A stretch of DNA of 64,000 nt. It comes from Astropecten irregularis (Eukaryota; Echinodermata; Asteroidea; Paxillosida; Astropectinidae). The notes under the pieces were generated by a model. It searched no databases. It saw only the letters and a list, made by a program, of their open reading frames with translations, and was not told the origin of the DNA. Shown in pieces: positions 4,530 through 61,839 of the stretch. How positions within the stretch are numbered: position 1 is the first letter of the stretch; each line of letters starts with the position of its first letter. Made by a program: the position numbers and the translations under genes. The stretch covers positions 6,324,001 to 6,388,000 of the forward strand of contig OZ020254.1 of assembly GCA_963971285.1 (NCBI GenBank). The letters are read 5' to 3'.

Positions 4530-5227
4530 CTACGTGGCAATTCCAGCTGCCGAAGTCCGTGCTTGTGCGGCGGTCAGGTGCTGAAAGTGCGGCGAATAAG
4601 ACAGCGGGAACTGAAGAAGGTGGTGGCGGGACAAGGCCCCACTGTCTGAGTCTGTGTGGCCGGACCTGGCCGCCGCTGCTGCTGCTGCATTCTCGTGATA
4701 CAAGATGGGCACTCTGACCATCCTCTGTGCGGCCTGGGCCTGGGCCTGCACCTGGGCGTGAGCCACGTGGGCCATGTTAGCTGCCTCCAACTCGGCCGCC
4801 ATCTGCCGCTTCCACTTGTTCCGTCGGTTCTGGAACCAGATCTTGACCTGCGTCTCGGTCAGGTGGAGGGAGGTAGCCAGCCCGGCCCTCTCGGAGCTGG
4901 ACAGGTATCGCTTCAGATCGAAGGTGGTCTCCAGCTGGAAGACCTGGCTGCGGGAGAACACGGTCCGCGTCTTCTTCTTCTTCTTGCGCTGACCGTCGCG
5001 GTCACCACTCGAGCCGCCGCAGCTACTGCCGTCTCCTCCGTCGCCACAGCCGGACTTCTTGCCCGAGTCGCTGTCCATGTCGCTGGCCCTGTCCTCGGTC
5101 TGGTCGGGGCTGTGGGGTCGGATGGGCGACTGGGAACGACTGGTGGACTTCGGCGAGTGGGGAGGAGATGCCTGGTGTAGACTGGAAGGTGATGGGCGGG
5201 GAAGGGATGGGGGATGAAGCAGAGCAC
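4530..5227 (-). CDS. Hmx: Hmx exon 2 (homeodomain and C-terminus)
   Basis: The exon begins after the minus-strand acceptor at 5228-5230 (pyrimidine-rich, ending CCACCAG) and ends at the TAG at 4530-4532. It first encodes a Ser/Pro-rich linker (SP repeats such as SPPHSPKS and [12 protein letters not shown]) and an acidic Ser/Gly stretch. It then encodes the basic [11 protein letters not shown] arm and the whole homeodomain, so the intron does not interrupt the DNA-binding domain. After the RVPILYHE motif come an alanine run and a non-conserved tail. The exon is much more GC-rich than its surroundings, which produces long spurious antisense reading frames. Confidence 0.95.
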
Positions 5228-59400: not shown

Positions 59401-61839
59401 GAGGTTAACAAGTTAATAATAATGAAATGAATTTAATTTCCCCGTGATCGCGTTGTTGAAAATCTCGATGCACTTCGGGAAAACACTGACAAAAACTACA
59501 TGTAGGCCTGTATACTGGGGCGAATAAGTCCATAACGACGGATCTCAAAGTACAGATCATTCAATCAGATCAAATTCAACGGTCGTGTAACTTTCATTCA
59601 CGAAGTGCTCCATTTTTCTGATTTTCTTCCTGCAGGTCAAGACGTGGTTCCAGAACAGGAGAGCAAAATGGAGGCGAGTGAAGCAGGTAAGAAGTTAGAC
59701 AGAGATAGGCATATACTCTTCCAATTAAGGAGACTTAGAAGAGTCATTGCTCAAAGAACAAAAGAATCCAAAAGGAGACAAAAACACCCAAAATATGAAC
59801 ATCCAAAGCAGATAACAGTCATAACGCATACTCACATCAAACAAGCAAGTCAAACTCAAATTGAATTTCTACTTTTCGGTAACTTATTTTTCAACTCCAA
59901 CCAGTAAAAAAGGCAGTGTACGCACCTATACCATACAATGTACATATACATTATAAATCACCCTTATGCACTTAAGCATATACGGAACTCCGTGCACATA
60001 ACACACGGAAGGAAGGGAAGATATAATGAACCATCATTCAAAGAAATCGTGCCGAAACAATAGATGCGGGATATTTTTTTCCTCGCTTGAGATCCGGTCT
60101 GGCTGGTTGAGTTAACATGTTGCGAGCCACCACCGGCATATTCGGCACTTCACATATGGGAATGGTCATTGAAAAAATTAAATGGCGCGCACAGGAAATT
60201 ATAGCAAGCCACTAAACATACATTTTTTTATTCTAGTTCTGAGGGCGCCATCTTGGGAGTAGGGACCTAAACCCCAGTATAATGTATACTTGTAATTAAG
60301 TGAATTCATAAATCAATGCACGATTTTGATATTTGGTCATTATTTGGGGTATACTTAAACACTATAGGCCTACGTAAACCACAAAAATAGCGTTCACGGA
60401 GCGCCTCCTTCGATTAAAAAAAATGGTATCTTAATGCCACGTGTACTGGCCTATTAATGCCACGTGTACATGTATATGTGGGCAGTTACTGAAACCTTTG
60501 CACTCGGTTCGGATTTTATCGACTTTTGATGGCAAACTTGTAACTTTTAGGCAGTTCAAACACAGAGTCAGTCACACTGCCTGACATATCCAAAGCCCCT
60601 ATCAGCTAGAGTAGACGTGATAATTACCGATTGGCAGTGTTGTTTGCAAACACTTAATGGGTTCTTTCACGCCGCGCAGAGAGGCAGAGAAAACAAAACT
60701 ACTTAACGAAGTGATATTATTCTCCGTCCACCATGTACATGGACGGGGCGACCTACAGCGGGTGTTGCCCGCTTGGGTTGGGCGGTCTTTCTCGCCCAGT
60801 CGCCCGGTGGTCAGTGTGTCAATATTTGCGCTGCAAACCGCGCACAACAGCCGGACAAGAGATGCTGGTCTGTGATAGAACGCTTAATAATAATCATCAG
60901 CAGTTAATGGGTGTCACTGAGTTGACGTGTACAAGTTTCCCTTCCGTCCCTATAGTATGCAAACTCCAAAGCATTATTGCTAATTATCCAATTACTCTCA
61001 TTGTTGTATCAACCGACGAATCATTGTCTGTAACCAGTTAGGTGCAATGTGCGTGTTTGTGACTAAACAAAAATAGGATCCCATTTAAAGAAAAAAATCT
61101 GATCAGCATTACCAAATATTAAAATAATGCGGTACAAACAAAATGTCACTATGATAAGTAAATATTACATAACCATCTATGTCGGAGACAATATTGATCA
61201 GAAATTGTATTCTATTTACGTGCAATTTCGAATAGTGCGTCTTCTAGAGATGTAGGAGATGTTGGCCTCGGGTCATTCCGTGTACAGTATTCGTTTATTT
61301 GGGGCTGCTAATGGAATAACACTAATTAAATTGCATCTATAACGACTTCATATTCCTATACAGCCTTACAAAGTGAACGTAAATATCAAACGTTTTAAAC
61401 CAACGCTCTGCAGTCCTGGACAATGACTCAAAATTGTAAACCGGGACTTTGGTTCTATAGCACCGCACTCATATCATACACCGTCTTGCCTGGCGACAGT
61501 GGTTAAGGATTTCCTGTGTGCTTTTAAATAGCACCCACAAGGCGCCAATTCTAATGGTTTTTCAAGGAAACATGGCTGCCGGATCAAAGTTCCGGAACCT
61601 TTTGATGAAGGTCAAAGGTGACTAATACAGAACTTCTTTTGTTTTTTTCCTTCTACTTTCAGGAGGTGCCAACAGGAAAGGGAGAAGGTGACGAGAACTG
61701 CGGCGATTCTCACGATAACCCGCGAGATTTGGACCGAGAGGAGTTCAGAGGGGACCAGGTACTGACTAATGGTACGTCCCGCAGCGGGTTCACGCACAGG
61801 GCAGGAGATGGGGCCTCGTTAGAACAGAAGGAGGTCTGA
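44022..61839 (+). CDS. Hhex: Hhex (Hex/PRH) homeobox transcription factor, complete four-exon gene
   Basis: The coding sequence is join(44022..44466,56062..56246,59636..59686,61663..61839), giving 285 residues (human HHEX is about 270). The N-terminal half is rich in Pro, His and Asn. It contains TPFYIDNILG (60-69), the eh1-like repression motif conserved in Hex proteins. Exon 2 opens with PFLWNPFIQRPLHKRK (153-168). The homeodomain (167-226) reads GGQVRFSNDQTMELEKKFES... and ends VKTWFQNRRAKWRRVKQ, with Gln at position 50. This combination is diagnostic of Hhex, known in vertebrates as a mainly repressive regulator of anterior endoderm, liver, thyroid, endothelial and blood precursors. The tail (228-285) is acidic, as in the family. 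Introns are phase 1, 0 and 0. The four-exon plan, with the homeodomain split before VKTWFQ, matches vertebrate HHEX as I recall it. An in-frame TGA at 44001-44003 supports the start. Confidence 0.97.
45223..45281 (+). repeat. Dispersed repeat copy (AGTTAGGAGGGTCTGACG unit)
   Basis: Single copy of the unit found as an inverted pair at 25031-25133; contains GTTTCGATCCTAGCAGGATC. Confidence 0.6.
50091..50307. mobile_element. Foldback element in Hhex intron 1
   Basis: Imperfect arms of about 80 bp: 50091-50175 and 50229-50307 are reverse complements (shared AAAAGAAGGTA, GTGACACCATGTAA, CTGTGAGAGTGT, CTGAGAAGAAT), with a loop of about 50 bp. No coding sequence. A 10-base CCCTTCGTCG is present on both flanks (50048, 50314). 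Confidence 0.75.
52818..52890 (-). mobile_element. tRNA-like element / tRNA-derived SINE
   Basis: On the minus strand it starts GGGCTGGATAGCTCAGTTGG, has an A box (TAGCTCAGTTGG) and a B box (GATTCGAATC), and ends CCAGCC, pairing with the 5' GGCTGG. The anticodon and T stems pair poorly, so it is not a convincing functional tRNA. A 3' tail (AATTTTTCTTTGTTCAC) is related to that at 63227. Confidence 0.6.
55649..55700 (+). repeat. Dispersed repeat copy (AGTTAGGAGGGCCTGACG unit)
   Basis: Third copy of the same unit, with GTTCCGATCCCGATCAGGAT. It begins TACTTAGAGTTAGGAGG, like the right arm at 25083-25133. Confidence 0.6.
56062..56246 (+). CDS. Hhex: Hhex exon 2 (homeodomain helices 1-2)
   Basis: The acceptor is a long CT-rich tract ending TTTGCAG at 56061, and the donor is CAG|GTAAGG at 56246/56247. 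The exon completes Val149 and encodes residues 149-210, including homeodomain positions 1-44. The LWNPFIQRPLHKRKGGQVRF segment is nearly identical to Hhex of other animals. Confidence 0.96.
56247..59635 (+). other. Hhex intron 2 (3.4 kb)
   Basis: This is a phase-0 intron interrupting the homeodomain between helix 2 and the recognition helix. It contains AT-rich sequence, one TAGGCCTA at 59085-59092 and short GC-richer stretches near 58280-58700. I see no additional exon or recognised repeat. Confidence 0.8.
59636..59686 (+). CDS. Hhex: Hhex exon 3 (homeodomain recognition helix, 51-bp micro-exon)
   Basis: A 17-codon exon encodes VKTWFQNRRAKWRRVKQ, the recognition helix. It is bounded by TTCCTGCAG and GTAAGA, phase 0 on both sides. 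It is too short to be found by length-based ORF calling and is recognised by the WFQNRRAKW signature. Confidence 0.96.
59687..61662 (+). other. Hhex intron 3 (2.0 kb)
   Basis: A phase-0 intron. It contains a 16-bp direct duplication carrying two CACGTG E-boxes (60431-60469) and one TAGGCCTA (60365-60372). Nothing else was recognised. Confidence 0.8.
61663..61839 (+). CDS. Hhex: Hhex exon 4 (acidic C-terminal tail)
   Basis: The acceptor is CTACTTTCAG at 61662 and the exon runs in phase 0 to TGA at 61837-61839. It encodes 58 residues starting EVPTGKGEGDENCGDS and rich in Asp/Glu, consistent with the acidic C-terminal domain of Hex proteins. Primary sequence conservation is low, as usual for this part of the family. 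Confidence 0.88.
   Translation, partial: EVPTGKGEGDENCGDSHDNPRDLDREEFRGDQVLTNGTSRSGFTHRAGDGASLEQKEV

Follow-up and report, generated by a model that had tools for sequence, protein, structure and literature searches.

Two homeobox genes, namely Hmx and Hhex, lie side by side in the genome of the sea star Astropecten irregularis, and the question raised by this locus is whether such a neighbourhood was inherited from an ancient gene cluster, is maintained by shared regulation or came about secondarily. The window, i.e., the whole stretch of 64,000 nucleotides that was analysed, corresponds to C18:6324001-6388000 of a 475.7-Mb assembly of 168 contigs, and positions given below without a chromosome name are counted from its first letter. 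The original prediction, drawn from the letters of the window, held that two complete homeobox genes stand back to back with nothing convincing between them and that their linkage may preserve part of an ancestral NK-type homeobox cluster, perhaps kept together by regulatory DNA of the spacer that serves both genes. As developed below, Hmx and Hhex very probably constitute the right half of a retained Vent-like/Nk1/Hmx/Hhex sub-block of the ancestral bilaterian NK cluster. As such, the predicted pair is only half of the arrangement: the two genes are neighbours indeed, but the block really comprises four genes and continues to the left beyond the window.

Both gene models are whole and in phase, with GT/AG splice sites, and the outer limits originally proposed for the locus, 4530 and 61839, coincide with the stop codons of Hmx and Hhex, respectively. 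Hmx is encoded on the minus strand by two coding exons (coding sequence 4530-7887, 347 amino acids) and Hhex on the plus strand by four (44022-61839, 285 amino acids), among which the fourth, predicted from a splice acceptor and phase, is the least certain. The Hmx homeodomain belongs to the Hmx (Nk5) family, being identical to HMX3 at 57 of 60 positions and to HMX2 at 52 of 60, against 38 of 59 for the next-best family, and joining HMX2/3 in a homeodomain tree with 97/96 support. The stretch FSIESIL in its first exon is presumably eh1-like, and the C-terminal stretch of its second exon would resemble HMX3. The Hhex homeodomain (KGGQVRFSNDQT...) is identical to that of human PRH/HHEX (PDB 2e1o) at 53 of 57 positions, i.e., with four differences, and is placed in the Hhex family with 100/99 support in the tree; the motif TPFYIDNILG in exon 1 is also present in HHEX.

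The two genes, Hmx(-) and Hhex(+), are divergent and head to head, with start codons separated by 36,134 bases. Given this orientation and this distance, they most likely have their own separate promoters. Under uniform placement, two given genes would fall within 51.3 kb of each other with a probability of about 2e-4 genome-wide, or 5e-3 if already on the same chromosome. In line with the original proposal, no convincing gene was found in the spacer. No PF00046 homeobox match lies between the Hmx and Hhex homeoboxes in a genome-wide search that returned at least 100 matches, with 150 of 163 candidates scored. The spacer has 171 open reading frames of at least 60 amino acids outside a tandem array. 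Frames were ranked by their codon usage, with 36 homeobox frames as the training set, and of those in the spacer 22 were scanned, none exceeding the Pfam cut-off, which leaves room for genes in the 149 other frames, for short exons and for non-coding RNAs.

To the left, the neighbourhood extends further. The Nk1 homeobox (C18:6263915-6264085, plus strand) lies 65 kb from Hmx, outside the window, and its homeodomain is identical to NKX1-2 at 58 of 60 positions, with 97/92 support; an upstream frame (C18:6258531-6259412) carrying the stretch FSVADILSPDKF is taken as the first exon of this gene. Nk1 and Hmx are thus adjacent as in the ancestral NK cluster: the 64.9 kb that separate their homeoboxes contain no other homeobox match, other types of gene in that interval being covered by the codon-usage ranking of frames only. 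A Vent-like homeobox (C18:6225053, plus strand), split after homeodomain position 44, follows 39 kb beyond Nk1 and 104 kb from Hmx. Its best match among 17 references is VENTX at only 30 of 57 positions and, with long branches, it has no supported place in the tree. No PDB chain labelled Hmx, Nk1 or Vent was present among the 60 best matches to the corresponding homeodomains (of 124, 123 and 159 matches, respectively), and these three names therefore rest on the reference homeodomains used for the tree; HMX protein letters were also sought in PMC9859826 and none were found there. The resulting order is Vent-like(+), Nk1(+), Hmx(-) and Hhex(+), with all four homeoboxes within 155 kb.

At the scale of the chromosome, this block is one of four groups. 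All 14 homeobox matches of C18, out of the 100 in the genome, are NK-type, and they are distributed in four groups across 12.2 Mb, including the core genes Msx, Nk4, Nk3, Lbx, Tlx, Nk7 and Nk6, which all reside on this same chromosome. For naming, 12 of the 14 were compared with reference homeodomains (in three cases over the first part of the domain only), while the names Noto and Vax were given by eye. The tree itself has few columns, with nine of 28 inner branches well supported and the Nk2.1 and Nk2.2 references left out, and in it Msx groups weakly with NANOG, while the NK2-type genes of chromosome C8 join Nk4. A single compact NK array was not found; only the sub-block is compact, against the four groups over 12.2 Mb. 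In simulations with uniform placement of 14 genes along C18, four genes fell within 155 kb in only 0.17% of 200,000 draws, and not one of 50,000 draws gave three separate groups of four genes that each spanned at most 326 kb. Because these genes are understood to descend from tandem duplicates, such grouping reflects common history and not function.

The comparison with other animals relies on printed descriptions of gene order, in the passages cited, and on sequence from one genome. That Hhex is linked with NK genes is already known, and the present locus is a further example of it, widened from two genes to four. The NK1-Hmx tandem is agreed to be ancestral and Hhex is termed NK-linked in arthropods and spiralians, lying between Msx and NK1+NK5 in the spider Latrodectus and the sea spider Pycnogonum (PMC13088399). 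A sea spider block comprises NK5, NK1, Hhex and four Msx genes (PMC12220506), and the so-called cluster B of spiders frequently shows linkage with Hhex, NK5-B and NK1 (PMC10726417). With this bilaterian cluster, Astropecten shares the adjacency of Nk1 and Hmx and the presence of Hhex in the block, and the Tlx-Nk7-Nk6 and Nk3/Nk4/Lbx/Msx groups are on C18 too; it differs in that Hhex adjoins Hmx, where the sea spider list has it next to NK1, that a Vent-like gene adjoins Nk1 and that the four groups are up to 12 Mb apart. On one oyster scaffold, Hhex, NK5, NK1, Vent-like, NK7, NK6, Noto, Emx, Vax, Tlx, Lbx, Msx, NK3 and NK4 are listed together, with Vent-like beside NK1 as here, but in another order, dispersed among other genes and with NK5 appearing twice (PMC7566022). 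For Nematostella, Saccoglossus and Branchiostoma, linkage between Hex and the NK cluster has been described (PMC10719294). Among other cnidarians, scaffold 8 of Exaiptasia carries NK1/3/4/5/6 and Hhex (PMC9444052), and two jellyfish scaffolds carry NK genes, among them Emx, NK1, NK5 and Hhex, together with Hox, the source passage leaving unstated which gene is on which (PMC7305137). As in Astropecten, Hex/Hhex is linked to NK genes in these cnidarians, but Hox genes are intermingled with them in the jellyfish and in Exaiptasia, whereas here Hox is on another chromosome. In human, HHEX, NKX2-3, LBX1, TLX1, EMX2, VAX1, HMX2/3, NKX1-2, VENTX and NKX6-2 are all on 10q, but HHEX (10q23.33) and HMX2/HMX3 (10q26.13) are in distant bands (PMC2211742), as had been predicted. 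Among the paper titles listed by literature searches, none concerned an echinoderm NK cluster, which is not to claim that none is in print.

Several published elements weigh against a simple retention of this order. Hhex is listed beside NK1, not Hmx, in the sea spider text (PMC12220506), and in the oyster the genes are dispersed, the printed list having NK3 between Hhex and NK5 (PMC7566022). In the parts of the sources concerned, a lepidopteran cluster is listed without Hhex (PMC9977156), a centipede table names the slouch-drop and tinman-bagpipe pairs without Hhex (PMC4244043) and Hhex is classed among the genes outside the NK cluster (PMC6466738). Since the Hmx-Hhex neighbourhood thus differs between lineages, the present order could reflect local reshuffling of genes whose linkage is older.

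Among the alternatives, the one that survives best is functional constraint, where interleaved enhancers of both genes in the 36-kb spacer would keep Hmx and Hhex together. The divergent arrangement of the pair about a large spacer that yielded no gene is consistent with it, and functional constraint has been argued to be likely for NKL linkage (PMC13088399). Against it, flagged repeats account for 7,442 of the 36,134 spacer bases, i.e., at least 20.6%, a lower bound as the 7.9-14.5 kb interval was left out of the genome search and only some candidates were scored. One of these repeats, a 2.5-kb element, has copies at 95-100% identity, in keeping with a recent insertion, and the spacer therefore tolerates insertions. 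It is possible, but somewhat doubtful, that breakage is additionally hindered by enhancers shared or interleaved in the spacer. A stronger version, namely that Nk1-Hmx-Hhex, with the Vent-like gene, is the primary pre-bilaterian arrangement, kept in cnidarians, chelicerates and this echinoderm through regulatory DNA shared by Hmx and Hhex in the spacer, is considered unlikely.

No better favoured is a secondary reunion, according to which the linkage on one chromosome is old but the tight Hmx-Hhex spacing was derived by local inversions in this lineage. Gene order within NK groups does vary between lineages, secondary reassembly is mentioned for drosophilids (PMC7566022) and the cluster on C18 is already broken into four groups. 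Yet three tight four-gene groups are hard to obtain by random shuffling, as seen from the simulated draws, Nk1-Hmx is the agreed ancestral tandem (PMC13088399) and, in the sea spider, Hhex already shares one block with NK1 and NK5 (PMC12220506); altogether, a reunion is improbable. As for an assembly artefact joining unrelated contigs, it is hardly credible at all, with no N bases in the 264 kb round the pair (C18:6204001-6468000) and neighbours that are the very family members expected from published clusters.

From the published pattern, we infer descent rather than reunion, in line with a retained sub-block. The NK genes would have arisen by ancient tandem duplication and the cluster would have been kept on one chromosome, C18, where within-chromosome rearrangement would have broken it into four groups over 12 Mb. 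Hmx and Hhex would encode ordinary homeodomain transcription factors, and their neighbourhood would most simply be inherited. The sea spider order and the present one could be connected if Nk1 and Hmx had been inverted together inside the block. That the block is a remnant of an NK-type cluster, as first suggested, is thus supported both by the grouped, exclusively NK-type homeobox content of C18 and by the published links of Hhex to NK genes.

With this locus, a chromosome-scale echinoderm genome is added to the animals in which the content and order of the NK cluster can be read. It bears on the order of genes in the ancestral NK cluster as a whole, which is contentious (PMC13088399). Here, Hhex is inside the NK block, and the Hox, ParaHox, NK2-type and NK genes are divided among four chromosomes (C14, C20, C8 and C18, respectively), the same split as described for bilaterians (PMC10598428) and reconstructed for their ancestor. 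If the primary arrangement considered above were true, this echinoderm would provide a test system for why a piece of the NK cluster resists breakage.

Table 1. Coordinates of the features of the Hmx-Hhex locus and of the NK-type homeobox groups of chromosome C18 (window positions unless C18 is indicated).
Feature	Position	Strand	Basis or content
Hmx exon 2, coding sequence including stop codon (homeodomain and C-terminal stretch)	4530-5227	-	open reading frame, AG acceptor, phase
Hmx exon 1, coding sequence	7542-7887	-	ATG at 7887; GT donor, phase matches exon 2
Spacer between start codons, no gene found	7888-44021		homeobox, Pfam, Rfam and ARAGORN searches
Tandem-repeat array, ACCAACCGACCA-type units, 1.6 kb	12808-14415		repeat search
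Short palindromic interspersed repeat	19381-19807		38 of first 40 listed matches at 80-86% identity
Non-coding repeat, about 2.5 kb	26395-28908 (C18:6350395-6352908)		at least 40 genome copies at 95-100% identity
Interspersed repeat, 325 bp	38380-38704		at least 39 matches besides the window's own copy, 89-94% identity
Hhex exon 1, coding sequence	44022-44466	+	ATG at 44022; splice site, phase
Hhex exon 2, homeodomain positions 1-44	56062-56246	+	homeobox match, splice sites, phase
Hhex exon 3, remaining homeodomain (VKTWFQNRRAKWRRVKQ)	59636-59686	+	splice sites, phase; joined domain matches PDB 2e1o
Hhex exon 4 including stop codon (least certain)	61663-61839	+	AG acceptor, phase
C18 group 1	C18, 1.47-1.63 Mb		Noto 1466030, Tlx 1520711, Nk7 1568977, Nk6 1631828
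C18 group 2	C18, 6.23-6.38 Mb		Vent-like 6225053, Nk1 6263915, Hmx 6328806, Hhex 6380127
C18 group 3	C18, 10.71-10.86 Mb		Emx 10714714, Vax 10856992
C18 group 4	C18, 13.37-13.69 Mb		Nk3 13366474, Nk4 13392420, Lbx 13473715, Msx 13691523

Some candidates in the window were examined and rejected. For hidden protein genes in the spacer, the best Pfam matches remained below cut-off, namely PF03121 (expectation value, E, 0.01), in a frame overlapping the end of the 2.5-kb repeat, and three others (E 0.067-0.094). Rfam gave no match in the spacer at gathering score; the sole such match in the window, a marginal tRNA at 63141-63223, is outside the spacer, and ARAGORN finds no tRNA. Regarding the repeats, the 2.5-kb element has a longest frame of 129 amino acids and, by comparison of 20 bases near its ends, no terminal inverted repeat; the identity of its copies marks it as very recently spread. 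The palindromic repeat is matched on the opposite strand too at many places.

The four-gene block is flanked on the left by a galactosyltransferase gene (PF13733 and PF02709 above cut-off), which we take to be B4GALT7, and then by an HMG-box exon (PF00505), and on the right by an MFS-type frame whose match to PF07690 is weak and does not reach the cut-off (E 0.001). The human places of the neighbour genes, presumably 5q35 for B4GALT7 and 4p16 for MFSD10, were not used as evidence. Further right of Hhex, several subtilase-like frames (C18:6445758-6461432), with PF00082 in the one tested, suggest a tandem protease family. Two frames near the block, of 997 and 801 amino acids (C18:6252287-6255277 and C18:6436068-6438470), look by eye like proteins of non-LTR (long terminal repeat) retroelements.

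Elsewhere in the genome, other homeobox genes, named by eye, were met. Gsx-, Xlox- and Cdx-like homeoboxes form a compact ParaHox cluster within 66 kb (C20:967580-1033155), and a compact ParaHox group has been reported for a sea star (PMC3710244, cited in PMC4604119). On C14, the main Hox group (15450349-15816398) and Hox11/13-like homeoboxes (19502228-19603373) are about 3.7 Mb apart, which suggests that the Hox cluster is split. On C8, a stretch of 175 kb (22954661-23129212) holds two homeoboxes of NK2 type and a divergent third that is Msxlx-like, as in a separate NK2 cluster. A single open frame of 3428 amino acids contains four homeodomain matches (C9:18534639-18537542) and is presumably a Zfhx-type gene.

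Beyond homeobox genes, the mitochondrial COX1, on the 16,335-base contig C168, reads AAA as Asn, ATA as Ile, AGA as Ser and TGA as Trp, corresponding to NCBI table 9 (echinoderms, also flatworms). Of these two groups, the Hox11/13-like homeoboxes favour the echinoderms, and the compact ParaHox group hints at a sea star. A second open COX1 frame, of 552 amino acids (C131:32162-33484), is without stops, and its contig is therefore perhaps a bacterial one in the assembly. Finally, a COX1-like stretch with seven TGA codons (C25:9951047-9952018) is probably a nuclear copy of mitochondrial DNA.

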